Assembly: GCA_031261325.1 (NCBI GenBank)
Contig: JAISKH010000063.1
Coordinates: 1-64,000 of the forward strand
Direction of reading: 5' to 3'
Origin: Oscillospiraceae bacterium
GTDB taxonomy: Bacteria > Bacillota > Clostridia > Oscillospirales > Oscillospiraceae
Length of the DNA stretch: 64,000 nt
This document shows, one piece after another, positions 8,674 through 23,653 of the stretch; within the stretch, counting starts at the first letter, position 1; every line of letters starts with the position of its first letter. The notes beneath the pieces are model-generated. The model saw only the letters and a list, made by a program, of their open reading frames with translations. It searched no databases and was not told the origin of the DNA. A program made the position numbers and the translations under genes.

Positions 8674-10806
8674 TTAAAGCAGCGGCTCCATCGCGAGAAC
8701 GGGGTGCTCCTTTTCCGTCAGGAACGCGAGCAACGCTTCGGGGTCGTCCGTTACCGAATCCTCGTCCGCAATGCGGTCGCAGAAGTCGTCAATGCCGTAA
8801 AGCTCCTTTGCCGATTCGTTAAGACGCTCGCGCACAGTCTCCTTAAGCGCCTTGGGCATCCACACGATACGCGCGACGCCGCCCTCCGCCTTGAGGAACT
8901 TCTTTGACGCGATGAAGTGCTTGCCATGACCCATGAAGCCGGGGGTTTGAACGCCGCCGCCCGTCATGGACGCCATTTCGGAGAACGTCATGCCCAGCGG
9001 TGTAACGCCCGTGTGTTCGCGGTTGACTATGGAAACGCCGTTGGAAATAGGCTCGATGCCGCATATGCACTCGAAGCAGCCGCATGAGGTCATCGGGTCC
9101 TCAAGGATTGAATACAGCGTAACCTGCTGCAACGCGCCGTGCGAGTACTTCTGCACAGCCTCGTTAACGTCCTCAAACGCGCCGACGCGCTCGTCAATGA
9201 CGCGCTTCTTGGTGACGACCTGGCACGGACCGTTGGGGTCAAGCTCGTTCGTCGCCTTTGCGTCCAGCCATGACACCGCGCCGCAAAGCCCGAGACGCTC
9301 CGGCGTGACTATGCAGACGTGCGCGGGTGAAAAGCTCTGGCACAGGATACAGTTATAGAAAACCTCGACATTTTCGTCGGTCATGGCGCGCAGACGCAGG
9401 TCGCGCTTGTCATATGTCTTGTTCGCTTCGGCGCGCAGCTCTTTGAGCTTCGCCTTGTCGGTTACGAGCGTCACCTGACACTTGTCAACGACGGTGTCGT
9501 ACTCGCTCTTAACCTTTGCGTACAGCACCTCGCCGATGTGGCGGATTGAGAAGCCCGCCTCGAACGCCGTGTTGGAAATACGTATGCGAATCATGTCGCG
9601 CTGACCCGTGTGCATAACGCCCTCGATACAGTTGAGGAAGTTATGGAACTTGCGCTCAAACACAGGCTCAAAGTCGGGCTGCATGTTCTTGCCCGCAACG
9701 TCAACAATTACGCCGAGTGACATTGAACCTCCCGGCTCAATGTCCGCTATGTCGGGACCGTCCACGATGATTTGGTGGTCCTCAATATCCTTCGCTTCCT
9801 GCGAGCGCACCCACTCAAAGCAGTCGAACCGCGCGCCGTTGATGTCAACGCGCATGTCGGCTTTGCGGATAATCTCGCCCTCAAACGCGGTTGAGAAAGC
9901 GACGGGTATGTCTATGTTCGTTATCTTAATCTTAATGTCGCGCGCTTCCAGAGAGGTTTCGATGAAGTCCTCGGTGTCCTCCTGAATAATCAGGCTCTTG
10001 GGCACGCGCCACATGTCGTCTGTGTCGTTTGTGATAACCGGGAAGCCCATGGCAATCGCGCCGCCACCGCAGGCGACAACGATGTCCGCCACGGGCTTGT
10101 ACGCGTTGACAAACGCGAAAATGCGCGCCATTGAGTATTCGTTAAACGCTTCCCAATCGCCGGGCTGAACCGCGCCGAAAATCATCGCCGCGCGCTCAAC
10201 GAGCGATATAATATGTCCGACCGACCAAATCTCCTGCCCGACGGGCACGACGCGCACGGGGAAGCCCATTGACAAGCCCGCTTCAACCGCTTGGTCGATT
10301 ACTCCGCCGATGAGGAACACGAAAATGCCGCGCGTCTGATAGCCCTTAATGAGGTTGACGGCTTCCTCCGTGCTCGGCGCGGGACCGATTACGACGACGA
10401 AGCCCGGAATGTCCTGCGTGACGAGCGGAACGCCAAGCTCACGAACCTCCGCGTCCGAGAAGTGACCGTGATACACGGTGCCTTCATACGGCGTGGGCGT
10501 GCGGGCGTACTTCGTCGCCTCGATAACCTCCGCCGCCATTGCCGTGCCGATACCGGACGAGAATACGTCCGTCGTGCGATAATTTGTCGTCATCTTGCCC
10601 TTGATTTCGGCGAGAGCGTCGCGCAGCTCCGATAGCTTCGTGACCTTCTTTCCGAGATACGCGTAAATACACGACAGGAAGTATGCCGTGTCGGGCATCT
10701 GCATTTGAGCGTCCTCACCAAGTTCGGCGATTACCTTAGCGAGTTCTTCCTCCGCCTTTTGGTACATTTCCGCCGAACCTCTGAACACTCTGTCAAAAAG
10801 ACCCAT
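8674..10806 (-). CDS. acsB: Acetyl-CoA synthase, CO-methylating subunit
   Basis: Condenses CO, a methyl group from the corrinoid protein, and CoA into acetyl-CoA at the nickel-iron-sulfur A-cluster. The 710-residue protein has all six A-cluster cysteines: Cys486, Cys489, Cys498, Cys508 and the Cys575-Gly-Cys577 pair that bridges the distal nickel. The spacing is exactly that of the Moorella enzyme (506, 509, 518, 528, 595, 597). It is of near-normal length, so the N-terminal CODH-docking domain is present. Its ATG directly follows the stop codon of cooC with no spacer, suggesting translational coupling. Confidence 0.97.
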   Translation of the reverse strand: MGLFDRVFRGSAEMYQKAEEELAKVIAELGEDAQMQMPDTAYFLSCIYAYLGKKVTKLSELRDALAEIKGKMTTNYRTTDVFSSGIGTAMAAEVIEATKYARTPTPYEGTVYHGHFSDAEVRELGVPLVTQDIPGFVVVIGPAPSTEEAVNLIKGYQTRGIFVFLIGGVIDQAVEAGLSMGFPVRVVPVGQEIWSVGHIISLVERAAMIFGAVQPGDWEAFNEYSMARIFAFVNAYKPVADIVVACGGGAIAMGFPVITNDTDDMWRVPKSLIIQEDTEDFIETSLEARDIKIKITNIDIPVAFSTAFEGEIIRKADMRVDINGARFDCFEWVRSQEAKDIEDHQIIVDGPDIADIEPGGSMSLGVIVDVAGKNMQPDFEPVFERKFHNFLNCIEGVMHTGQRDMIRIRISNTAFEAGFSIRHIGEVLYAKVKSEYDTVVDKCQVTLVTDKAKLKELRAEANKTYDKRDLRLRAMTDENVEVFYNCILCQSFSPAHVCIVTPERLGLCGAVSWLDAKATNELDPNGPCQVVTKKRVIDERVGAFEDVNEAVQKYSHGALQQVTLYSILEDPMTSCGCFECICGIEPISNGVSIVNREHTGVTPLGMTFSEMASMTGGGVQTPGFMGHGKHFIASKKFLKAEGGVARIVWMPKALKETVRERLNESAKELYGIDDFCDRIADEDSVTDDPEALLAFLTEKEHPVLAMEPLL

Positions 10807-11589
10807 TTAATTTTCCCCTTTCATGCTGTCAATTCGCTGTTTAATCTCGCGAATTTCACGAACCGTATCAGCGCTTGTCTCATACGGCGAAATTCCGAGT
10901 CTGTCGGCGTCAATCACTTCAGCGTTATAGTGAATCACGCCCAATAGTTCTTCACTCGGGATTCGTTCCCGAAGATACGCCTCGTCCTCGTCAGAGCGCA
11001 CTTTATTCGCAACTACGTTGATGTTGCGCACGCCGATGTCAAACGCAAGCCGCTTGATTTTTTTGTATGTCTGGACGCTTCTCGCGCCCGGTTCTATAAC
11101 GACGACGAACATGTCCACAAAGTCCGCGGTGCCGCGCCCCAAGTGCTCCAGTCCCGCCTCCATGTCAAGGATAACAACCTCGTCGCGCGCGATTACCAGA
11201 TTGGAGATTACGCGCTTTAGCATGACGTTTTCGGGGCAGACGCAACCGCTTCCGCCGGACTCGACCGTGCCCATGACGAGCAGCTTTACGCCGTTTTTCT
11301 CCGCCGCGAATCGGTCGGGAATGTCGTCAACTTTGGGGTTAATCTTGAAGAACTTGCCGTAGTTTTCTTTCGTCGTGCCTGTGCGCTCGGCAATCAGCTC
11401 GTTCATCTGCGCGACGGGTACGATGTCGTCAATCTCTTCCTCCGTGAAGCCGAGCGCAAGACCGAGATTCGCGTCAGGGTCCGCGTCCGCGCACAGAACG
11501 GTTCTGCCCTCCGCGGCGTATAACCGCGCGAGCACCGCCGCAAACGTAGTCTTGCCGACTCCGCCCTTACCCGAGACTGCAATTTTCAT
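10807..11589 (-). CDS. cooC: CODH/ACS nickel-insertion ATPase CooC/AcsF
   Basis: P-loop ATPase of the MinD/SIMIBI class that matures the nickel sites of CODH or ACS. In 260 residues it shows the deviant Walker A GKGGVGKTT (residues 7-15), DADPDANL, the metal-binding Cys116-Val-Cys118 pair in GCVCPENVM, and a Walker B-like VVILDMEAGLEHLGRG. AGGAG precedes the ATG. It lies between cooS and acsB, so it probably serves one or both of its neighbours. Confidence 0.95.
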   Translation of the reverse strand: MKIAVSGKGGVGKTTFAAVLARLYAAEGRTVLCADADPDANLGLALGFTEEEIDDIVPVAQMNELIAERTGTTKENYGKFFKINPKVDDIPDRFAAEKNGVKLLVMGTVESGGSGCVCPENVMLKRVISNLVIARDEVVILDMEAGLEHLGRGTADFVDMFVVVIEPGARSVQTYKKIKRLAFDIGVRNINVVANKVRSDEDEAYLRERIPSEELLGVIHYNAEVIDADRLGISPYETSADTVREIREIKQRIDSMKGEN

Positions 11590-11640
11590 GTGTACTCCTA
11601 TCCAGTCAGCCTTTGATTCTGCGCGGCTGACTTCGCGAGG

Positions 11641-11670
11641 GGAACGGGGAGTTTTTAGTTCCCCGTTTCC
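11641..11670 (-). other. Intercistronic stem-loop between cooS and cooC
   Basis: GGAACGGGGA (11641-11650) pairs with TCCCCGTTTCC (11660-11670) with one bulged T. No T-run follows on the minus strand. It lies in the 103-nt gap after cooS. Confidence 0.45.
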
Positions 11671-11692
11671 CTAACTGTTACCTGTTAATTGT

Positions 11693-13588
11693 CTATATTC
11701 CTAACGCCGCGCGCTTCTCTTCGATGCCCTCGATGATGGACTTGACGAGCTGATGCGGGTCGGTGTTTATGATATAGCCCGCGCCCGTAATCTTGCGTGT
11801 GCCCTGCGTGATGATTTCCATCATTTGGTCGCTGCCGTTGACCTGCGGCTCAATACCGAGATACACGTCCAGACCTGTGGAGACGACGTAGTTGGCGATT
11901 GAAACCGCCTTTTCGCTCATCCACTCCGGCGCGCAACCGACGACGGGGATTTGCGTGATGTCAACGCCCCAGTCCTTTGCGATGCCAGTCGCGAGCAGCA
12001 TCATGCGCGAAATGTCAACGCACGCGCCCATGTGCAGTATCGGCGGAATGTCAACAAGCTCGCACACGCGGCGCAGACCCGCTCCGCACAGGTACTTCGC
12101 GTCCTTGTTCAGCAGACCCGCCTTGGTGGCGAGCTGCGCGGCGCAACCTGTCGCGACGATAAGAATATCGTTCGCGATAAGCTCTTTCATAATCTCAAAA
12201 TGCGAGTAGTCGGGGCGCACGCGCGGGTTGTTGCAGCCGACAATCGCGACCGCACCGCGCAGGACGCCGGAACGAATCGTGTCGATGACGGGCTTGTACG
12301 TTCCGATAATCTCGACGTGGCTGTTCGTAACGTTATCGAGGTGCTTGATAATCTGCTCCGTCGGATAGCCGACGGTCGCGGTCTGCTTCGTGGGCGGGAT
12401 ATACACCTTGGATTCGTCGCGGTTCTGGAAGTTGTCAATCGCTTCGCGCACGAGCTGCTTCGCTTGGTCGAACGCCGTTTCCGGCTTGAACTCGACATAC
12501 GTGCTGCCCGGGATACGCGCTATCGGCGAGCTTGTGATGAACTTCGTGTGGAAGCACTGCGACAGCTGCGCGAGCGCGGGGAAAATGCACTGAATGTCAA
12601 CGCACATCATCTCGACGGCGCCCGTGAGAATGACGTTCTCCTGCTGCAGGAAGTTGCCCGCCATGCGAACGCCGTGACGCATTGCGACTTCGTTCGCCGT
12701 GCAGCACAGACCGACGACGTTGATGCCCTTCGCGCCCTTGGTTTTCGCGTAGTCAACAAGCTCCCTGACCTCGCACGCGGTGACTAGCATTTCGGAAAAC
12801 GCGGGGTCGTGCCCGTGTACTATGATGTTCACCATGTCGCTTTCGAGAACGCCGAGGTTGCCCTCCGTCGTCCAAACCGTCGGCGTGCCGAACAGAATGT
12901 CCGTAATTTCCGTGCCGAGCATGGAACCTCCCCAACCGTTGGCGAGACTCATGCGCAGTCCCTGCCGCACGAGTGCCTCCGCGTCTGCGGAGTTGCCCAT
13001 GTGGGTCATGTGCATCGCGGTTACGACCTCGCGGTCGATGGCGCGCGGCTCAATGTCCTGCTCTTTCCAGACCTTTTGGCGCTCTTCCGTCGCGCGGGTC
13101 AGGAAGCGCTGGGTGCCCTCGGGCTTGCCGAATTCCAACAAGCCAACGTCGGCAACGTCGTGCGCGATGTCGTAGATGTCGCGTCCCTCCGTCTCAACGT
13201 CCCACTCTTTCGCGAGATTTATGAGCTTCAGTTCGTCGCGAACCTGATAGTTTCCGTCGCGGCTCGCGGATTTCAGCACGTGCAGAATCTCGCGCGCGTG
13301 GTCGGAGTGCGACGAGGTGCCCGCCGCGATTGAGCGCAGGTAGTTGCGCGCGGCGATTGCGTCCGCGTTCGCGCCGCATATTCCGCGCGGGGATTTCGGC
13401 GTGATGCGGCACGGACCCATGGAGCAGTTGCGACAGCAAATGCCGCCTTCGCCGAATTTACAATGCGGCGTTTGCGCCTTTGCGCGGTCCTCCCATGTTT
13501 CAGCGCAGACGTTGCAAGCGGTCTCGCGCAATTTGGCGGTGTCCGCCTCCATCTGCTCTATCGTTGTGAAATGATTTGTCCTACTCAT
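11693..13588 (-). CDS. cooS: Anaerobic carbon monoxide dehydrogenase catalytic subunit
   Basis: Interconverts CO2 and CO at the Ni-Fe-S C-cluster and feeds CO to acetyl-CoA synthase; also called acsA. In 631 residues the N-terminus has the D-cluster (Cys43, Cys51) and B-cluster (Cys52, Cys55, Cys60, Cys71) ligands. C-cluster elements are present: the HGHDPAFSEM histidine, GLCCTANE, MMCVDIQC, VGCNNP, ATGCAAQ and HMGACVD. The ATG follows GGGGG. It is first in the operon, behind its own promoter and a leader that can form a stem-loop. Confidence 0.97.
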   Translation of the reverse strand: MSRTNHFTTIEQMEADTAKLRETACNVCAETWEDRAKAQTPHCKFGEGGICCRNCSMGPCRITPKSPRGICGANADAIAARNYLRSIAAGTSSHSDHAREILHVLKSASRDGNYQVRDELKLINLAKEWDVETEGRDIYDIAHDVADVGLLEFGKPEGTQRFLTRATEERQKVWKEQDIEPRAIDREVVTAMHMTHMGNSADAEALVRQGLRMSLANGWGGSMLGTEITDILFGTPTVWTTEGNLGVLESDMVNIIVHGHDPAFSEMLVTACEVRELVDYAKTKGAKGINVVGLCCTANEVAMRHGVRMAGNFLQQENVILTGAVEMMCVDIQCIFPALAQLSQCFHTKFITSSPIARIPGSTYVEFKPETAFDQAKQLVREAIDNFQNRDESKVYIPPTKQTATVGYPTEQIIKHLDNVTNSHVEIIGTYKPVIDTIRSGVLRGAVAIVGCNNPRVRPDYSHFEIMKELIANDILIVATGCAAQLATKAGLLNKDAKYLCGAGLRRVCELVDIPPILHMGACVDISRMMLLATGIAKDWGVDITQIPVVGCAPEWMSEKAVSIANYVVSTGLDVYLGIEPQVNGSDQMMEIITQGTRKITGAGYIINTDPHQLVKSIIEGIEEKRAALGI

Positions 13589-13897: not shown

Positions 13898-14905
13898 TCA
13901 AAGTTCCAGTCTTTTGCCCGAACCGGCGACGGCGGGAACGCCGCACTCGCTCGTAAGCACGTCGGCAAGCCGCAGTAGCTCCGGCTCCCATTTGTCACGC
14001 TCGGGCGCGACGTAATCGCCCATCGGATACTCCTCGCCGAGCGACGCGTACTTCTCCGTTCCCATCTTGCGATACGGCAAGAGCTGATACTGCACAAGCC
14101 TTTCGCCGAGCGCGTCGCGCAAAAATTCGGCGGTGGCGCGCAGGTTTTCCTCGTCGGCGTTGTAGCCGTGCACGACGGGAGTTCTTGCGACGACGGGTTT
14201 GTTCAGCTCCGCGAGCTTACGTATATTCGCGAGAATCAGCTCGTTGCCCGCGCCCGTAATCTCGCGGTGCCGCGCGGAGTTCATGTGCTTAACGTCCGTG
14301 ATGATGAGGTCGGCGAGCCGCAGGACAGGCTCCGCGCGCTCCCACGGAACGTGCAGCGCAGTCTCGACGCACGTATGGATTCCCGCCTTTTTGCACGCTG
14401 TCAACAGCAGCTCCGCGAACTCCGCCTGCACGAGCGGGTCGCCGCCGGAGAGCGTAACTCCGCCGCCCGTGCGGTCATAGAAGCTGCGGTCCTCCTCGAT
14501 GATTTTCATGAGCCGCGGCACGGTGTAGCGTTCGCCCCAGATGCGGAGCGCGCGCGACGGGCACGCGTTTTCGCACTCCTTGACCATCTCGCATTGTTCC
14601 GAGTTGCAGCGTTCGTTCTCGTGCCACGCGGCAAGTCTGCCGTCGCCGTCAAACTTGAGCGGCGCACCGTCCAGCGGGCACGCCTTGACGCACCAACCGC
14701 AAATATCGCGCGTCAGGCACTTGTCCGGGTAAACGCCCAGTCGCGGGCGCGGCGAAATAGTCTCGGGATTGGAGCACCACAGGCAGCGCAGCGTGCAACC
14801 CGTGAAGAAAATCTCGGTGCGAATCCCGGGTCCGTCGTGGATTGTGTATTTTTGAATGTTCGAGACAAGCCCATAGAGATTGCCGATACGCGGTTTTTTT
14901 AGCAC
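13898..14905 (-). CDS. Glycyl radical enzyme activase (radical SAM)
   Basis: Generates the glycyl radical on a partner enzyme using SAM and a 4Fe-4S cluster. The protein is 335 residues from the GTG at 14905. The frame is open to a TTG at 14920, but that codon overlaps the GGAGG ribosome site, which is correctly placed for the GTG. The radical SAM motif is Cys37-x3-Cys41-x2-Cys44. Two further four-Cys sets follow (63, 69, 72, 76 and 100, 105, 111, 115), the ferredoxin-like insert found in activases of lyase/dehydratase-type enzymes and absent from classic PflA. TGGGVTLSGGDPL is present. Likely clients are the two glycyl radical enzymes at 17.8-23.7 kb, although it is not adjacent to them. Confidence 0.9.
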   Translation of the reverse strand: MLKKPRIGNLYGLVSNIQKYTIHDGPGIRTEIFFTGCTLRCLWCSNPETISPRPRLGVYPDKCLTRDICGWCVKACPLDGAPLKFDGDGRLAAWHENERCNSEQCEMVKECENACPSRALRIWGERYTVPRLMKIIEEDRSFYDRTGGGVTLSGGDPLVQAEFAELLLTACKKAGIHTCVETALHVPWERAEPVLRLADLIITDVKHMNSARHREITGAGNELILANIRKLAELNKPVVARTPVVHGYNADEENLRATAEFLRDALGERLVQYQLLPYRKMGTEKYASLGEEYPMGDYVAPERDKWEPELLRLADVLTSECGVPAVAGSGKRLEL

Positions 14906-14987
14906 GGGTGGTACCTCCAATAAAACAAGGATACAGTACTATTATACCATATCCTTGCTGTTTTTCATAGAGTTATTATTGAGCGGC

Positions 14988-16832: not shown

Positions 16833-16861
16833 GCAAACCTCGCGGTGATGTGTTACAATGT
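16833..16861 (+). promoter_or_regulatory. Promoter of the SDR oxidoreductase gene
   Basis: TTGCAA (16833-16838), 17-nt spacer, TACAAT (16856-16861). It gives a short leader with GGGAGG 7-8 nt before the ATG. Confidence 0.75.
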
Positions 16862-16900
16862 ACCAATGCAACAAAAAACACTATATCGGGAGGTAATTTT

Positions 16901-17695
16901 ATGGCTATTACATCAATCGCAGAGGCTTTTTCACTCAAGGGCAAGAACGCAATCGTCACCGGCGGCAGCAAGGGCATCGGTCTGGGCATCGCGACGGCGT
17001 TCGCCGAGTCTGGCGCGAACCTCGCAATCTTCGCGCGCGACGAGAAGTCGGGCAACGCGGCGGCGGCGGACCTCGCGGCAAAGTACGGCGTGACCGCGAA
17101 GTTCTACAAGGCGGACATGGCAAGCACGGCGAGCTGTACGGAAGCCGTCGGCAAGGCTATCGCGGACTTCGGCGAGATTAACATTCTCGTCAACAACTCC
17201 GGCAACATGCCGAACGGCGGTTTGCTCGACATGGACGCCGAGCTGTCGGGGTACTTTGAGTGCATCGACGTTGACCTGAACGGCGTTGTGCGCATGACAT
17301 ACCTTGTCGGCAAGCACATGCGCGACGTGGGTAAGGGCGGCAAGATTGTCAACATCAGCTCCAACGCGGGCGATATGGCAAGCCGCACCGTGTTCATGGC
17401 GACATACTGCACCGCAAAGGCGGGCGTTAACCAGTTCACGCGCGCGATGGCTCTTGAGCTTGCGGGCAACGGCATCACCGTCAACGCGATTGCCCCGGGT
17501 TACACGCACACGGCGAACTTCGACTTCTTCCCGAAGGAAATGCTGGACAGCATTTCGCGGACGATTCCGACGGGTCGTCTCGGCAAGCCGCTGGAAGTCG
17601 GCGCGCTCGCGGTTTATCTCGCGTCGCCCGCTTCCGACCAAGTGACGGGCACGATTGTCACAATCGACGGCGGTCACACGCTCGGTATTTATTAA
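16901..17695 (+). CDS. SDR-family NAD(P)-dependent oxidoreductase
   Basis: A classical short-chain dehydrogenase/reductase of 264 residues from the ATG at 16901; upstream in-frame codons lie in the promoter. The Rossmann nucleotide motif TGGSKGIG is at residues 20-27, NNSG near residue 98, and the catalytic set is Ser154, Tyr169 and Lys173 (YCTAK). The C-terminus DQVTGTIVTIDGGHTLGIY is typical of 3-oxoacyl reductase or gluconate/sugar-alcohol dehydrogenase relatives. The substrate cannot be assigned. It converges with glycyl radical enzyme 1 across a terminator, so a role in processing that enzyme's product is possible but unproven. Confidence 0.9.
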   Translation: MAITSIAEAFSLKGKNAIVTGGSKGIGLGIATAFAESGANLAIFARDEKSGNAAAADLAAKYGVTAKFYKADMASTASCTEAVGKAIADFGEINILVNNSGNMPNGGLLDMDAELSGYFECIDVDLNGVVRMTYLVGKHMRDVGKGGKIVNISSNAGDMASRTVFMATYCTAKAGVNQFTRAMALELAGNGITVNAIAPGYTHTANFDFFPKEMLDSISRTIPTGRLGKPLEVGALAVYLASPASDQVTGTIVTIDGGHTLGIY

Positions 17696-17770: not shown

Positions 17771-20344
17771 TCAGTCGAAGCTAAGGCTCGTTCGCCCGAT
17801 TATGTCGTCCTGCAACGCGCGGTTCAGCTCGACGAAGTACGCCGAGTAACCCGCGACGCGCACGAGCAAGTCCTTGTAATCCTCGGGGCTTTTCTGCGCG
17901 GCAAGCAGCGTTTCCTGATTCGCAACCGTGAACTGGCTGTGCATACCCTTGCGCTGCAAGTACTCGTCAATCAGCGCGAGGAACGCGTCACGTCCCGTCT
18001 CGCCCGCGAGTGCGCTCGGCGAGAACTTCCAGTTTAGCAGCGTTCCGTTCGTGGCGCGCGCGTGGTCGAGCTTCGTTACGGAACGGCAAATCGCCGTCGG
18101 TCCCTTAACGTCGTGCGAGCCGCCGCGCGTGTGCACCGCGCCCATGCAGTCCGAAACAGGCTCAAACGCGTGCCGCCCCTCAACGCTCGCCCATTGGTTC
18201 TGCCCGTGCGCGACGTTGACGGTCACGGAGTACGCGCCCGGTTGGAAGAAGCCGCCGCGCGCGTTCGGGCGGTGCTCAATGTGCTTGCACCACGTGTCCA
18301 TCGCGAATTTCGCAAGCTCGTCGGCGTAGTCGTCGTCGTTGCCGTAGTGGTGCACGCGGTCGGAATTGACGTAGGCGTACAGCCCCTCGTGCCCCGCCCA
18401 ATCTGCCGTCACCGCGTCGAGCAATTCGCGACCTGTGACACGCTTTTCGTCGAACACGAGCTGCTTTATCGTCGCAAGTCCGTCGCCCGCCGTGCCGATG
18501 CCGACGCCCTGCGGACCCGTGAAGTTGTATTTTGTGCCGCCCGCCGTTACGTCCGTGCCGCTCTCGATGCAGCCCTCCATGAACGCAGACAGTAGTGGCA
18601 GCGGGAAAAGCTGTTGGTGTACAAGGTCAACCGTGTTCAGCAGCGCGACCTGCCTGTCGCACCAGTATTCCATCTGCTTGTCGTAAGCCGCGAGCACCTC
18701 GTCAAAGCTCTTAAAATCGGCGAGACTTCCCGTCGCCGCGCCGAGACGACCGCCGTCGTGCGCGCATTTCTCGTAACGCTCGCACTCGGCGGAGCAGTTG
18801 TAGCACCGCCCGTCGTTAATCGCAAGCTCAAGCACGCGCGCGATGTTCATGTGCCCGCAGTCCTTCCAGCCGTAAGCCTTGCCCGACGGGTCGGGTTCGA
18901 CGCAACCGACGACCTGATAGTTCCGCGCGTCGGCAAGTGCGACGCTTGACGACAGCATGGACGGAATCGCCACGTCGTCGTTGAAGATTTTCGGCTCGCC
19001 CGTGCCCAAGCGGATTAGGTTCACGGTCTTAATCTTCAGCTCGCGCGGGGAACCGGAGTGCAACCGCACGGCGAGCCACGGGCACGGTATACGCACATGC
19101 GCGTGCGCGTCGAGCGCCATGAACGTCAGTTCGTTCGTCCCGTCGGAGCCGTCTTGCCGTATGCCGCCGACGGTGAGCGACGGGCCGCCTATGCCGCCGT
19201 TGCCGAATGTCTTTATTAAGATGTGGTTGCGCAGCTTGTTGAGGTCCCAAATCTTGATGAAAAAGCTCTCAATCAGCTCCTGAACCGCTTCGCGCGTCGT
19301 TGTGCCCGCGTCTATGTCGTTGCGGTAGAACGGGTACATGTATTGGTCGAACCGCCCGTAGGAAATTGAGTGTCCGTTGCACTCGATGAGCGCAAAGTCG
19401 GTCGCGAGCGTCACGAGCTGCAACGCCTCTCGGAACGAGCGCGGCGGGTTGACGGCGACCCATGAGCAAACGTCCGCAATCTCTTGCAATTCCGCAACTC
19501 GAACCGAATCGGTTTCCGCCGCGGCAAGCTCGAGCGCGCGCTCCGCGTAACGCCGAACGTGCTCAATCGCGGCATTCAGTACGATGCGCTCCGCCTTGTA
19601 GAACGTGCGCTTTTCAATGTCGCGCGGGCTTGCGAGAGTAAGCTTTGCTTCGCTTTCGTCAATCGTCGCGAGTATGCCGCCGAGTCCCAGCTTCAGCAGT
19701 CGGTCGTACTCCAAGCCGAGATGTCCCGCGCCGCAGAAGATGTAAGCGTCGGCGAAAAACACGCCCTTGCCGTCATGCGAACCCTTTAACATTTCTTCCG
19801 TCGCAATGCTTCTGACCATATCGGACACCGTATTTCCCGCCCAGAAGTCGCGCAGCTTTTCAAGCCGCTCCCGCGTGTCCTCGGTGTAGGTGAAGTAATC
19901 GTGCGTGCGCTCGTCGGAGTAGTCCATCAGCCCGTCGCGCATTTCGTCCACAACCCAGTCAAACCCAAATTCGGGGAACACGGGCGCGCCCTTTTTGTCG
20001 CAGCACAGGCACCCGACAAGCAGCTCGTGCGGGAAAATGTAAATTGGCGCGCGCGTCAGGACGTTCTCCATTGCGTAAGCGCGCTTGAGGAGCGCGGGTT
20101 CGCCGGAGTGCGCGCGGTACGCCTCGGTAATCAGCTCCGCCGCCTCGGGCGCGACGAAACCGTTCGTGGTTTTCGCGGTAATCGCCAAAATGTCGTTGAT
20201 GCGCTTGAACGGCGACGGGTTCGGCGTGTTGCCCGAAATGCCCACGCCCCATTCGCGGTCGTAAGGCTCAACGGCGAGCGGCGTGACCGTAACGTCACGC
20301 GCGGTCTTGTAGATGTCGCCCGTTAGGGCGCGTGTTGTTGACAT
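17771..20344 (-). CDS. Glycyl radical enzyme 1 (lyase/dehydratase type)
   Basis: An 857-residue anaerobic radical enzyme. The glycyl radical loop RVAGYSAYF places the radical at Gly832. The active-site loop GCVEP has a single Cys481 with Glu483 two residues on, the pattern of eliminases/decarboxylases such as diol, choline and 4-hydroxyphenylacetate enzymes. It is not the Cys-Cys pair of pyruvate formate-lyase. After the active site it has Cys514, Cys517, Cys521 and Cys527 (CX2CX3CX5C) where I would expect a cysteine-free loop. AGGAGG precedes the ATG. It is the last gene of a three-gene set with the metallophosphoesterase and its paralogue. The substrate is unknown. Confidence 0.9.
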   Translation of the reverse strand: MSTTRALTGDIYKTARDVTVTPLAVEPYDREWGVGISGNTPNPSPFKRINDILAITAKTTNGFVAPEAAELITEAYRAHSGEPALLKRAYAMENVLTRAPIYIFPHELLVGCLCCDKKGAPVFPEFGFDWVVDEMRDGLMDYSDERTHDYFTYTEDTRERLEKLRDFWAGNTVSDMVRSIATEEMLKGSHDGKGVFFADAYIFCGAGHLGLEYDRLLKLGLGGILATIDESEAKLTLASPRDIEKRTFYKAERIVLNAAIEHVRRYAERALELAAAETDSVRVAELQEIADVCSWVAVNPPRSFREALQLVTLATDFALIECNGHSISYGRFDQYMYPFYRNDIDAGTTTREAVQELIESFFIKIWDLNKLRNHILIKTFGNGGIGGPSLTVGGIRQDGSDGTNELTFMALDAHAHVRIPCPWLAVRLHSGSPRELKIKTVNLIRLGTGEPKIFNDDVAIPSMLSSSVALADARNYQVVGCVEPDPSGKAYGWKDCGHMNIARVLELAINDGRCYNCSAECERYEKCAHDGGRLGAATGSLADFKSFDEVLAAYDKQMEYWCDRQVALLNTVDLVHQQLFPLPLLSAFMEGCIESGTDVTAGGTKYNFTGPQGVGIGTAGDGLATIKQLVFDEKRVTGRELLDAVTADWAGHEGLYAYVNSDRVHHYGNDDDYADELAKFAMDTWCKHIEHRPNARGGFFQPGAYSVTVNVAHGQNQWASVEGRHAFEPVSDCMGAVHTRGGSHDVKGPTAICRSVTKLDHARATNGTLLNWKFSPSALAGETGRDAFLALIDEYLQRKGMHSQFTVANQETLLAAQKSPEDYKDLLVRVAGYSAYFVELNRALQDDIIGRTSLSFD

Positions 20345-20377
20345 ATGTGTACCCTCCTATTTATTTCAGCGTAACGA

Positions 20378-21115
20378 CTAACCCCGACGGAAATATTTCG
20401 CCGTTCGCAGTTCTGTGATATATCCTTCAAGGTCGGGAGTTTGGCATTGCCACGCAAGCTCAACCGCGCGGTCAATGTCGTAATCGACACGCACGAGCTG
20501 TATGTCCGTTTCCTCGCCGCCATCTTCAACGACAACATACGACGCGCGCGGAATGTCAAGCGGATTCCCGACGCTGCCAATGTTGACTAAGCGGCGCTCG
20601 GACAGCGTTTGTATATACGGCGTGTGAATATCGGCGTAAACGGCGACGTCCGCCGCGCGCTTTTCCTCCGAGCTTTCGGCGGAGCCGAACAGTTCCATGC
20701 GCTGTTCGAGCGGGCTGTTTGGGAAATAGCGATTGAAATTCAGCGGGTGCGCGTGAAACAGCCTGACGAGCTTGCCGCCAAACGCAAATTCCGTGCTGTG
20801 CGGCAGCGCGCCGACGTATTCCATGCGCTCTTCTCCGATTTCCCGCATGAACCAACGCGCTCGCTCGCTAATATCGCGCGTATCGCCGCCCGTTAACCGA
20901 GCAAAATCGCGGAACAGACCGTGTTCCCAGTTGCCAATCACAATCTCGTCGCAGTTTTGTCGGCACAGGTCGATTGCGGCTCTTGATTTCGGACCTTTGC
21001 CCACCATGTCGCCAAGACAGATAATGCGGTTAACACCTTGCGTCTCAATATCGCGCAGAACGGCTTCCATCGCCGGTAGGTTGCCGTGAATATCCGCAAT
21101 AAGCGCAATTTTCAT
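20378..21115 (-). CDS. Calcineurin-like metallophosphoesterase (YfcE/MJ0936-type)
   Basis: A 245-residue phosphodiesterase/phosphatase. Metal ligands are seen in ADIHGN (residues 8-12), LGDMVGKGP, GNWEHG (with Trp where most families have His), FHAHP, and YADIHTPY in place of the usual GHTH. The C-terminal NIGSVGNP is typical. An AAGGAA ribosome site precedes the ATG. It sits 25 nt after glycyl radical enzyme 2 and 33 nt before enzyme 1, so it is co-transcribed. Its role in that pathway, such as dephosphorylating a product, is inference only. Confidence 0.85.
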   Translation of the reverse strand: MKIALIADIHGNLPAMEAVLRDIETQGVNRIICLGDMVGKGPKSRAAIDLCRQNCDEIVIGNWEHGLFRDFARLTGGDTRDISERARWFMREIGEERMEYVGALPHSTEFAFGGKLVRLFHAHPLNFNRYFPNSPLEQRMELFGSAESSEEKRAADVAVYADIHTPYIQTLSERRLVNIGSVGNPLDIPRASYVVVEDGGEETDIQLVRVDYDIDRAVELAWQCQTPDLEGYITELRTAKYFRRG

Positions 21116-21139
21116 TCGTTGTATTCCTTAATCTAAGCC

Positions 21140-23653
21140 CTAATCAAAGCTCAACTCCGTTCGCCCGATTAGGTCGTTTTGCAGCTCGGTGGACAGCTCC
21201 ACGAAGTACGCGGAGTAGCCCGCGATACGCACTACCAAATCCCTGTACTTCGTCGGTTCCTGCTGCGCCGCAAGCATTGTCTCGCGCCCGACGATTGAGA
21301 ACTGGCTCTGCATTCCGTGGTGCTCGAAGTATGTGTCCATGAGGGCAATCAGGCTGTCGCGCCCGCTCTCGCCCGATACCGCCGTCGGCGCGAACTTCCA
21401 GTTGAGGATAATCCCGTTGCCTATGCGCTGGTGGTCGAGCTTTGCGACAGACTTCGCGACCGCGGTGGGACCGCGCCTGTCGTGACTGCCGAGCGCGGTG
21501 TGCGCGGGTCCTATGCAGTCCGAAACAGGTTCGCCTGACTTGCGCCCGTCGGGAGTTGCGGTTAAGACGCTGCCGTGCATTACGTTATTCGTCACCGAGA
21601 ACACGCCGGGCATAAACTCGCCGCCGTGCGCCGTCGGGCGGTGCTCGATGTGCTTGCAATACGTCGCCATGACGAACCGCGCAATATCGTCGGCGTAGTC
21701 GTCGTCGTTGCCGTAGTGGTGCATTCTGTCGGAGTTCACGAGCGCGTAGAGCGGCTCATGCCCCACCCAGTTTGCTTCAAGCGCGGTTAGCAACTCCGCG
21801 CCCGTTACGCGCTTCTCGTCGAACACGAGCTGCTTAATCACCGTCAGGGAATCCGCCGTCGTGCCGATACCCACGCCCTGCGGTCCCGAGCCGTTGTACG
21901 TCGCGGAACCGGTTGAAATGTCCGCGCCGCGCTCAATCGCGCCCTCAATGAGCAGCGACAGGTACGGCAGCGGTTTCAGCCGTTGGTGCGTGAGGTCGTT
22001 TTTGTTTATCAGCGTCACCAGAATGTCGCACCAATGCTTCATTTGCTTGTCGTAGCTCTCAAGCACCTCGTCAAAGCTCGTAAACGTCGCGAGACTGCCC
22101 GTGTCGGGCGAGAGCGGTTTGCCCGCGCCGACGCACCGCGCCCATTGCTTACACGTTGCGCCGCAACCGATACAGCGCCCGCCGTTAATCGCGAGCTGCA
22201 TTATTTTCGTGAGATTCACCGAACCCGAGTCGTGCCAGCCGTAGGTTTTGCCGGGAACCGACGGCTCCACGCAGCCGACGCCGACGTAGTTTCGCGCGTC
22301 CTCAAGCGTGCGCCCGTAGTTAAGCAGGGATTGAATCATCGGCTCGTCGTTGAAGATTTTCGGCTCGCCCGTGCCGATACGAATGACGTTGAACACTTTG
22401 ATTTTGAACTCGGGCGGCGAATTTTCGTGCAGGCGCACGCCCATCCACGGGTTCGGGATACGCGTGTGCGCGTGCGCGTCGAGCACCATGTAGGACAGGT
22501 CGTTCGTCATGTCGTCGCCGTTTTCGTCCACGCCGCCGACGTCCAGCGCGGTTCCGCCCATGATTGTGCCGCTGGAAAAGAAGATTGCGTTCTTGTCGCG
22601 AATCTTGCGCAATTCGTGCATTTTGACGAACGAGTGCTCAATCAGCTCCTGCATAAATTCGCGCGTCAGCGTGCCGCGCTCGGTGTCGCGTTTGTAGAAC
22701 GGATAGAAGATTTTGTCGAACCGCCCGTAGGTTACGGAGTGCCCGCTTGTCTCGATTATTATCATATTCGTCGCGATGTGCCAGAGCTGGATTGCCTCCC
22801 AGAAGTCGCGCGGCACGCCCTCCGCCACTTGGCGGCAGTTTGAGGCAATGCGCTCCAGTTCCGCGCACCTGACCGAATCGGTTTCCGCGTTCGCAAGCTC
22901 GTTTGCGCGCTCGGCGTAGCGCGTTATGTACGCTTTTACGCCCTCAAGCATGATTAGCTCGGCGGTGTAAAACTCGTCCTTTTTTACGCTCTCGGGCAGC
23001 GTCATGTCAAGCGACGATTTGCGGCGCAGTATATCGTCGCGTATGCCGCCGAACCCGACCTTCAGCAGCTTTTCATAGTCCGCGGTGACGTGCCCCACGC
23101 CCGCGTAAATGAACAAATCCTCCAAAATCACCGCCGCGCCGAGGTGCGAGCCGCGCGCTTCGTCCTCGGTATAAAGCGCGGTCGTCGCTTCGGAAACTGT
23201 GCGCCCGCGCCACGCGTCCTGTATGCCGAGAATCGCGTCGCGCGTCGCGTCGTCGATGACGTAACGGTCGTTTTTGCGTTGGTCGAGCGGACGGTTTTCC
23301 AGCTCGTCGCACAGCCAGTCGATTGAAAACTCGGGGTAAACGGGCGCGGAGTTCGGCGGCGCGGCGAGTTCGCCGACAATAAGCTCGCCCTCGTGTATCT
23401 CAACGGGCACGCGCTTCAGCACCTCCCGCAGAGCGAGCGCCCACTTGATGTTCTGCGGGTACATCGCGTATTTTTCAAAGCTCTCGGTCACGATAACGGC
23501 GCGGTTCGCGTCGGCGGTGGACGGCGTTTCCTTGTTGCGCCGCAGCATATTATTAATGCGCGGGAACGGCGACGGGTTCTCCACGAGTCCCGAAACGCCG
23601 ACGCCCCATTCGCGGTCAAACGGCTCGATTGCGAGCGGCAAATTGTTGTCCAT
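21140..23653 (-). CDS. Glycyl radical enzyme 2 (paralogue of enzyme 1)
   Basis: An 837-residue glycyl radical enzyme with the radical at Gly812 (RIAGYSAYF) and active-site Cys461/Glu463 in GCVEP. It shares long stretches with enzyme 1: DREWGVG near the N-terminus, LDAHAH, GTGEPKIFND, GPQGVGIGT, FDEKRVTG and HHYGNDDDYADD. It carries the same CX2CX3CX5C set at Cys494, Cys497, Cys501 and Cys507. GGAGG precedes the ATG, and a near-perfect promoter makes it the first gene of the unit. The enzymes have diverged in the active-site neighbourhood (GWHDSG against GWKDCG), so they probably use different substrates. Confidence 0.9.
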   Translation of the reverse strand: MDNNLPLAIEPFDREWGVGVSGLVENPSPFPRINNMLRRNKETPSTADANRAVIVTESFEKYAMYPQNIKWALALREVLKRVPVEIHEGELIVGELAAPPNSAPVYPEFSIDWLCDELENRPLDQRKNDRYVIDDATRDAILGIQDAWRGRTVSEATTALYTEDEARGSHLGAAVILEDLFIYAGVGHVTADYEKLLKVGFGGIRDDILRRKSSLDMTLPESVKKDEFYTAELIMLEGVKAYITRYAERANELANAETDSVRCAELERIASNCRQVAEGVPRDFWEAIQLWHIATNMIIIETSGHSVTYGRFDKIFYPFYKRDTERGTLTREFMQELIEHSFVKMHELRKIRDKNAIFFSSGTIMGGTALDVGGVDENGDDMTNDLSYMVLDAHAHTRIPNPWMGVRLHENSPPEFKIKVFNVIRIGTGEPKIFNDEPMIQSLLNYGRTLEDARNYVGVGCVEPSVPGKTYGWHDSGSVNLTKIMQLAINGGRCIGCGATCKQWARCVGAGKPLSPDTGSLATFTSFDEVLESYDKQMKHWCDILVTLINKNDLTHQRLKPLPYLSLLIEGAIERGADISTGSATYNGSGPQGVGIGTTADSLTVIKQLVFDEKRVTGAELLTALEANWVGHEPLYALVNSDRMHHYGNDDDYADDIARFVMATYCKHIEHRPTAHGGEFMPGVFSVTNNVMHGSVLTATPDGRKSGEPVSDCIGPAHTALGSHDRRGPTAVAKSVAKLDHQRIGNGIILNWKFAPTAVSGESGRDSLIALMDTYFEHHGMQSQFSIVGRETMLAAQQEPTKYRDLVVRIAGYSAYFVELSTELQNDLIGRTELSFD

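Follow-up and report, generated by a model that had tools for sequence, protein, structure and literature searches.

Two glycyl radical enzymes (GREs), here termed A and B, are encoded in the window, the whole stretch of 64,000 nucleotides of Oscillospiraceae DNA that was analysed. On balance they are probably dehydratases of the HpfG group, in which a four-cysteine loop of the catalytic chain itself holds an accessory site, most likely a [4Fe-4S] cluster. GRE A (17771..20344, minus strand; 857 aa) and GRE B (21140..23653, minus strand; 837 aa) are HpfG-related, PFL-like enzymes encoded by intact genes and sharing 53% identity. Both contain PF02901 and PF01228, the Cys finger loop and a Gly radical site of the RVAGYSA type, with C481/E483, D495 and radical G832 in A, and C461/E463, D475 and radical G812 in B. 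The CX2CX3CX5C motif is found in A as CYNCSAECERYEKC (18764..18805, minus strand; C514/517/521/527) and in B as CIGCGATCKQWARC (22133..22174, minus strand; C494/497/501/507). As the first-pass annotation had stated, the spacing is the same in both paralogues and the first motif cysteine lies 33 residues past the catalytic cysteine. In shuffled A or B sequences the motif appears at a frequency of at most 0.0002. The genome encodes nine PFL-like GREs; A and B carry the motif and the other seven lack it.

The motif is not peculiar to the A/B pair and is common to a whole group of related dehydratases. A scan of named genomes yielded 80 HpfG-type loci, and with family relatives added 108 sequences were aligned. 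All four cysteines are present in 70 of these sequences, none in 30 and a single one in eight, while no sequence has two or three; the offset of 33 residues from the catalytic cysteine is identical in 70/70 motif-bearing relatives. Such joint gain or loss at fixed spacing marks a four-ligand site, and the four cysteines thus behave as one unit. This is in line with the metal or Fe-S site proposed at first pass: the four cysteines very probably bind some metal, with Fe-S likelier than Zn. Further sampling of HpfGs from Clostridia and Lactobacillales genomes gave few additional members. True HpfGs with the motif occur in Hungatella, Clostridium aminobutyricum, Anaerovorax, Caloramator and Proteiniclasticum. 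HpfGs with a loop 13 residues shorter than the motif loop, a short type exemplified by SLNTGKQLG, occur in Superficieibacter, Escherichia sp., Enterococcus, Lactobacillaceae, Collinsella, Fournierella and Oribacterium, and the HpfGs of Enterococcus raffinosus and of a Fusobacteriota plasmid are motif-less as well. With the loop columns excluded from tree building, the motif state changed at least 9 times (FastTree) or at least 10 times (IQ-TREE). Only the first motif cysteine is left in the Epulopiscium-type HpfGs and in one Lachnospiraceae HpfG group (loci L069, L072, L084, L101, L102, L103 and L105), suggestive of a remnant left when the loop was deleted.

The genes for B and A flank a calcineurin-like phosphoesterase gene (20378..21115, minus strand), and the intergenic gaps of only 24 and 33 bp suggest that the three form one transcription unit. 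The sole GRE activase seen nearby (13898..14920, minus strand) lies 2.9 kb from the pair. It is a radical SAM protein with two auxiliary four-Cys sets, for which HpfH is the best model (333 bits, against a cut-off of 500). Adjoining the activase, positions 8674-13588 harbour genes for a CO dehydrogenase (11693-13588), a CooC-like ATPase and an acetyl-CoA synthase, indicating a Wood-Ljungdahl-type organism. A-type and B-type enzymes form two well-supported clades, together comprising 27 aligned sequences mainly from the window's own taxonomic family, and the motif is kept in all 27. They are two ancient paralogues that repeatedly occur as neighbours near one activase (window 17771-23653; L120-L123, L137); in several genomes both types are adjacent with one activase, and elsewhere each stands alone at other loci. 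An obligate A/B heterodimer is therefore unsupported, because each type occurs without the other nearby. Apart from the activase, no dedicated partner gene recurs beside A/B-type genes, so that an inference of the substrate from gene context failed; the short-chain dehydrogenase/reductase (SDR) encoded at 16850-17695 is not conserved beside these GREs.

A and B belong to a deeply branching clade with kinship to HpfG, which dehydrates (2S)-dihydroxypropanesulfonate (DHPS). Their best NCBIfam model is the HpfG equivalog NF048009, on which A scores 973 bits and B 1017 bits (curated cut-off 1000). True HpfGs score about 1500-1735 bits on this model, far above both, so A and B are placed as a sister group with an uncertain substrate. 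With HpfG they share about 47% full-length identity and the catalytic and radical residues, and the identical four-Cys loop is found in many HpfG members. The HpfG operon comprises the HpfD aldehyde reductase, the HpfH activase and a TauE-type exporter, a setting that A and B do not share. The HpfGs of Enterobacteriaceae and Enterococcus do not have the loop. No HpfD or TauE homologue is encoded within the window, and no close HpfD was found elsewhere in the (incomplete) genome, where the best match has 32% identity. The closest fold is that of the B12-independent glycerol and 1,2-propanediol dehydratases (1r8w, 9rco, 5i2a; best Z 49, rmsd 1.6 over 784 residues); these enzymes share the active-site residue set with A and B at 38% identity over the structural alignment, but have no four-Cys loop. 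Equivalents of glycerol dehydratase H164, H281, S282, C433, E435 and D447, which serve diol binding and activation in that enzyme, are conserved in A and B. The match to a diol-type dehydratase is in line with the earlier assignment as a lyase or dehydratase, and A and B are predicted to be HpfG-group dehydratases that carry out a glycyl radical 1,2-elimination. The radical site reads RVAGYSAYF or RIAGYSAYF in 106 of the 108 aligned sequences and is unreadable in the other two; the glycine at this site in the readable sequences rules out an aminoacyl radical enzyme (TRE/SRE/ARE).

Two other groups of HpfG-type loci differ in gene context. A motif-bearing HpfG-like group of Lachnospiraceae (L104, L108, L109, L112-L116) adjoins divergent SsuABC-type sulfonate ABC transporter genes, with no HpfD/TauE nearby, suggesting a sulfonate substrate and another downstream route. 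In Anaerovorax and Clostridium aminobutyricum (L040, L043 and related loci) the HpfG-type enzymes score in the range of true HpfGs, but a LuxR-type regulator is encoded upstream and the surrounding 8 kb or so contain neither HpfD nor TauE.

In 4-hydroxyphenylacetate decarboxylase (HPAD), benzylsuccinate synthase (BSS) and (1-methylalkyl)succinate synthase (MASS), [4Fe-4S] clusters or mononuclear Fe of accessory role are located on small subunits (PMC12358834). The earlier statement that known Fe-S clusters of the superfamily sit on separate small subunits is thus correct. These subunits carry CX2CXnCXnC sites in HiPIP or rubredoxin folds, whereas in A and B a short CX2CX3CX5C loop is part of the catalytic chain; no separate HiPIP- or rubredoxin-like small subunit was found beside A/B-type GREs. 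An in-chain zinc finger is known from the glycyl radical domain of the class III ribonucleotide reductase NrdD (PMC9669993), and like the A/B motif this finger consists of four cysteines within the glycyl radical chain. Contrary to the first-pass view, an in-chain four-Cys metal site is therefore not entirely new to the wider superfamily; what is distinct is its position and spacing in A and B. The NrdD finger lies in the C-terminal glycyl radical domain, while the A/B motif lies at 494-527 and the radical glycine at 812/832, and NrdD belongs to a different fold branch (Z about 20). The A/B motif matches neither the GRE small-subunit sites nor the NrdD finger in position or spacing. Among GREs in the PDB no four-Cys loop is present, and the two closest structures show a gap at that place. 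A profile of the loop found no GRE chain among PDB sequences even at E = 10 and no known Fe-S protein, giving only chance-level matches (gamma-crystallin, ribosomal eL24). The claim that characterised family members have a cysteine-free loop here is accordingly right for solved structures and wrong for the HpfG family, in which many members carry the motif. Full-text literature searches, whose scope did not extend to the original HpfG paper (PNAS 2020), returned no description of the four-Cys site.

A comparison among HpfGs indicates that the loop is dispensable. The HpfG of Hungatella, with the motif, and that of Superficieibacter, without it, share 84.4% identity and practically the same score on NF048009 (1720.3 and 1720.5 bits, respectively), and both are encoded beside HpfH, TauE and HpfD homologues. 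More generally, the motif is repeatedly missing in HpfGs that are 76-85% identical, several of them with the same operon partners. Conversion of DHPS into 3-hydroxypropanesulfonate by HpfG and then HpfD has been described, including for Enterococcus gilvus (PMC11489063). Motif-less HpfGs are present in six other Enterococcus species and in E. raffinosus; the sample did not include the HpfGs of E. gilvus itself or of Klebsiella. Read directly, enzymes so closely related, with equal scores and equal operon partners, suggest that the dehydratase reaction can run without the loop, the compared enzymes being presumed active from their sequences. On the same presumption, the expectation that the motif would be kept wherever close homologues stay active did not hold. 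Since the motif was lost many times in close relatives, the four-Cys site is probably an accessory feature and not part of the catalytic machinery.

B and the Hungatella HpfG were modelled with AlphaFold from 48 and 52 sequences, respectively, each model having a pLDDT of 88. In both models the motif segment is irregular coil, preceded by the helix after the catalytic strand and followed by a long helix, and a strand and a helix separate the motif from the active-site Asp. Confidence in the loop block is middling, at 52-75 in B and 72-89 in the Hungatella HpfG. The earlier description of the motif as near the active site applies to proximity along the sequence only. In the proposed explanation this excursion loop, longer by 13 residues, would wrap a single [4Fe-4S] cluster at the barrel periphery; one Zn or Fe in its place is less likely. 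The cluster would be a stabilising or regulatory site built into the large chain, with a role comparable to the one that small Fe-S subunits, as chains of their own, have in HPAD, BSS and MASS. Catalysis would proceed by the ordinary mechanism, independently of the four-Cys loop: the activase would make the Gly radical, the Cys thiyl would abstract a hydrogen from the substrate, and the leaving group would be lost with Glu/His assistance. We infer metal binding, cluster type, peripheral position and accessory role alike.

It is rather unlikely that the four cysteines instead bind a single zinc, or a mononuclear Fe, as a structural knuckle, for which the class III ribonucleotide reductase zinc finger and the rubredoxin-like MASS delta subunit would be comparable cases. 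The all-or-none behaviour of the four ligands suits Zn equally well, and both metals have precedents, zinc in the chain of class III ribonucleotide reductase (PMC9669993) and mononuclear Fe in an accessory GRE subunit (PMC12358834). However, four cysteines within 14 residues are unlike the two separated CX2C knuckles familiar from zinc sites, and GREs that have lost the motif tend to be paired with activases that have lost Fe-S cysteines. All auxiliary-cluster cysteines are kept in 53/54 activases near motif-bearing GREs, against loss of some of them in 13/36 near motif-less GREs. Scoring at fixed spacing had given 52/54; the window activase has all four cysteines at a different spacing and was counted in. 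The raw Fisher value, calculated on the table with 52/54, is 8e-5, and independent pairs on the tree gave about 1.8 concordant versus 0.1 discordant of 6, which is not significant. Such tracking is expected if both sites hold O2-labile Fe-S clusters; the trend favours Fe-S over Zn, with the site shed alongside other Fe-S sites as in Enterococcus and Lactobacillaceae, but is not significant once relatedness is counted. Eroded HpfH-type activases, encoded upstream of the GRE and with one or both auxiliary sets hit, occur in Enterococcus, Lactobacillaceae, Collinsella and a Lachnospiraceae group (L056, L057, L059, L061, L063, L079, L083, L086, L087, L100, L101, L103 and L105), mostly in aerotolerant hosts. 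Except for one missing cysteine in L041, an eroded activase was never next to a motif-bearing GRE.

The distribution over hosts bears on a second alternative, in which the cysteines bind no metal and instead sense oxidation, as a redox switch or by forming disulfides in the loop. GREs are oxygen-sensitive, and a cysteine-rich, dispensable, surface-like loop would fit such a function. The motif, however, is commonest in strict anaerobes and absent in every aerotolerant host sampled (Enterobacteriaceae, Enterococcus and Lactobacillaceae, representing only two main lineages), where a protective switch would lead one to expect the reverse, and the invariant spacing of all four cysteines favours a metal; a switch is improbable. 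Motif-less hosts also include the strict anaerobes Oribacterium, Collinsella and Fournierella, which counts against the Fe-S reading. A role of the site in catalysis, or in electron transfer beside the active site, which its fixed offset of only 33 residues from the catalytic Cys might suggest, is very improbable given its repeated absence from close HpfG relatives, several with the same operon partners, and the strand and helix that intervene in both models.

Returning to the accessory Fe-S site, its function may be conjectured further. Tentatively, an in-chain [4Fe-4S] cluster of the enzyme's own could provide oxygen- or redox-responsive control of folding, activation or stability, and could have been shed repeatedly, together with the auxiliary clusters of the activase, on the move into aerotolerant hosts. 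What the small Fe-S subunits of HPAD, BSS and MASS contribute is still a matter of debate (PMC12358834). HpfG offers a natural experiment, since 84% identical enzymes occur with and without the four-Cys loop in the same operon setting, and such pairs could reveal what a site of this kind does in a GRE, free of confounding subunits. Breakdown of sulfoquinovose, a sulfosugar, gives DHPS as a major product, and the four-Cys site may thus also affect gut sulfur metabolism. Both states also occur within a single genome (L182 and L183), which encodes two HpfG-related GREs, with 51% and 48% identity to the Hungatella HpfG, only one of which carries the motif.
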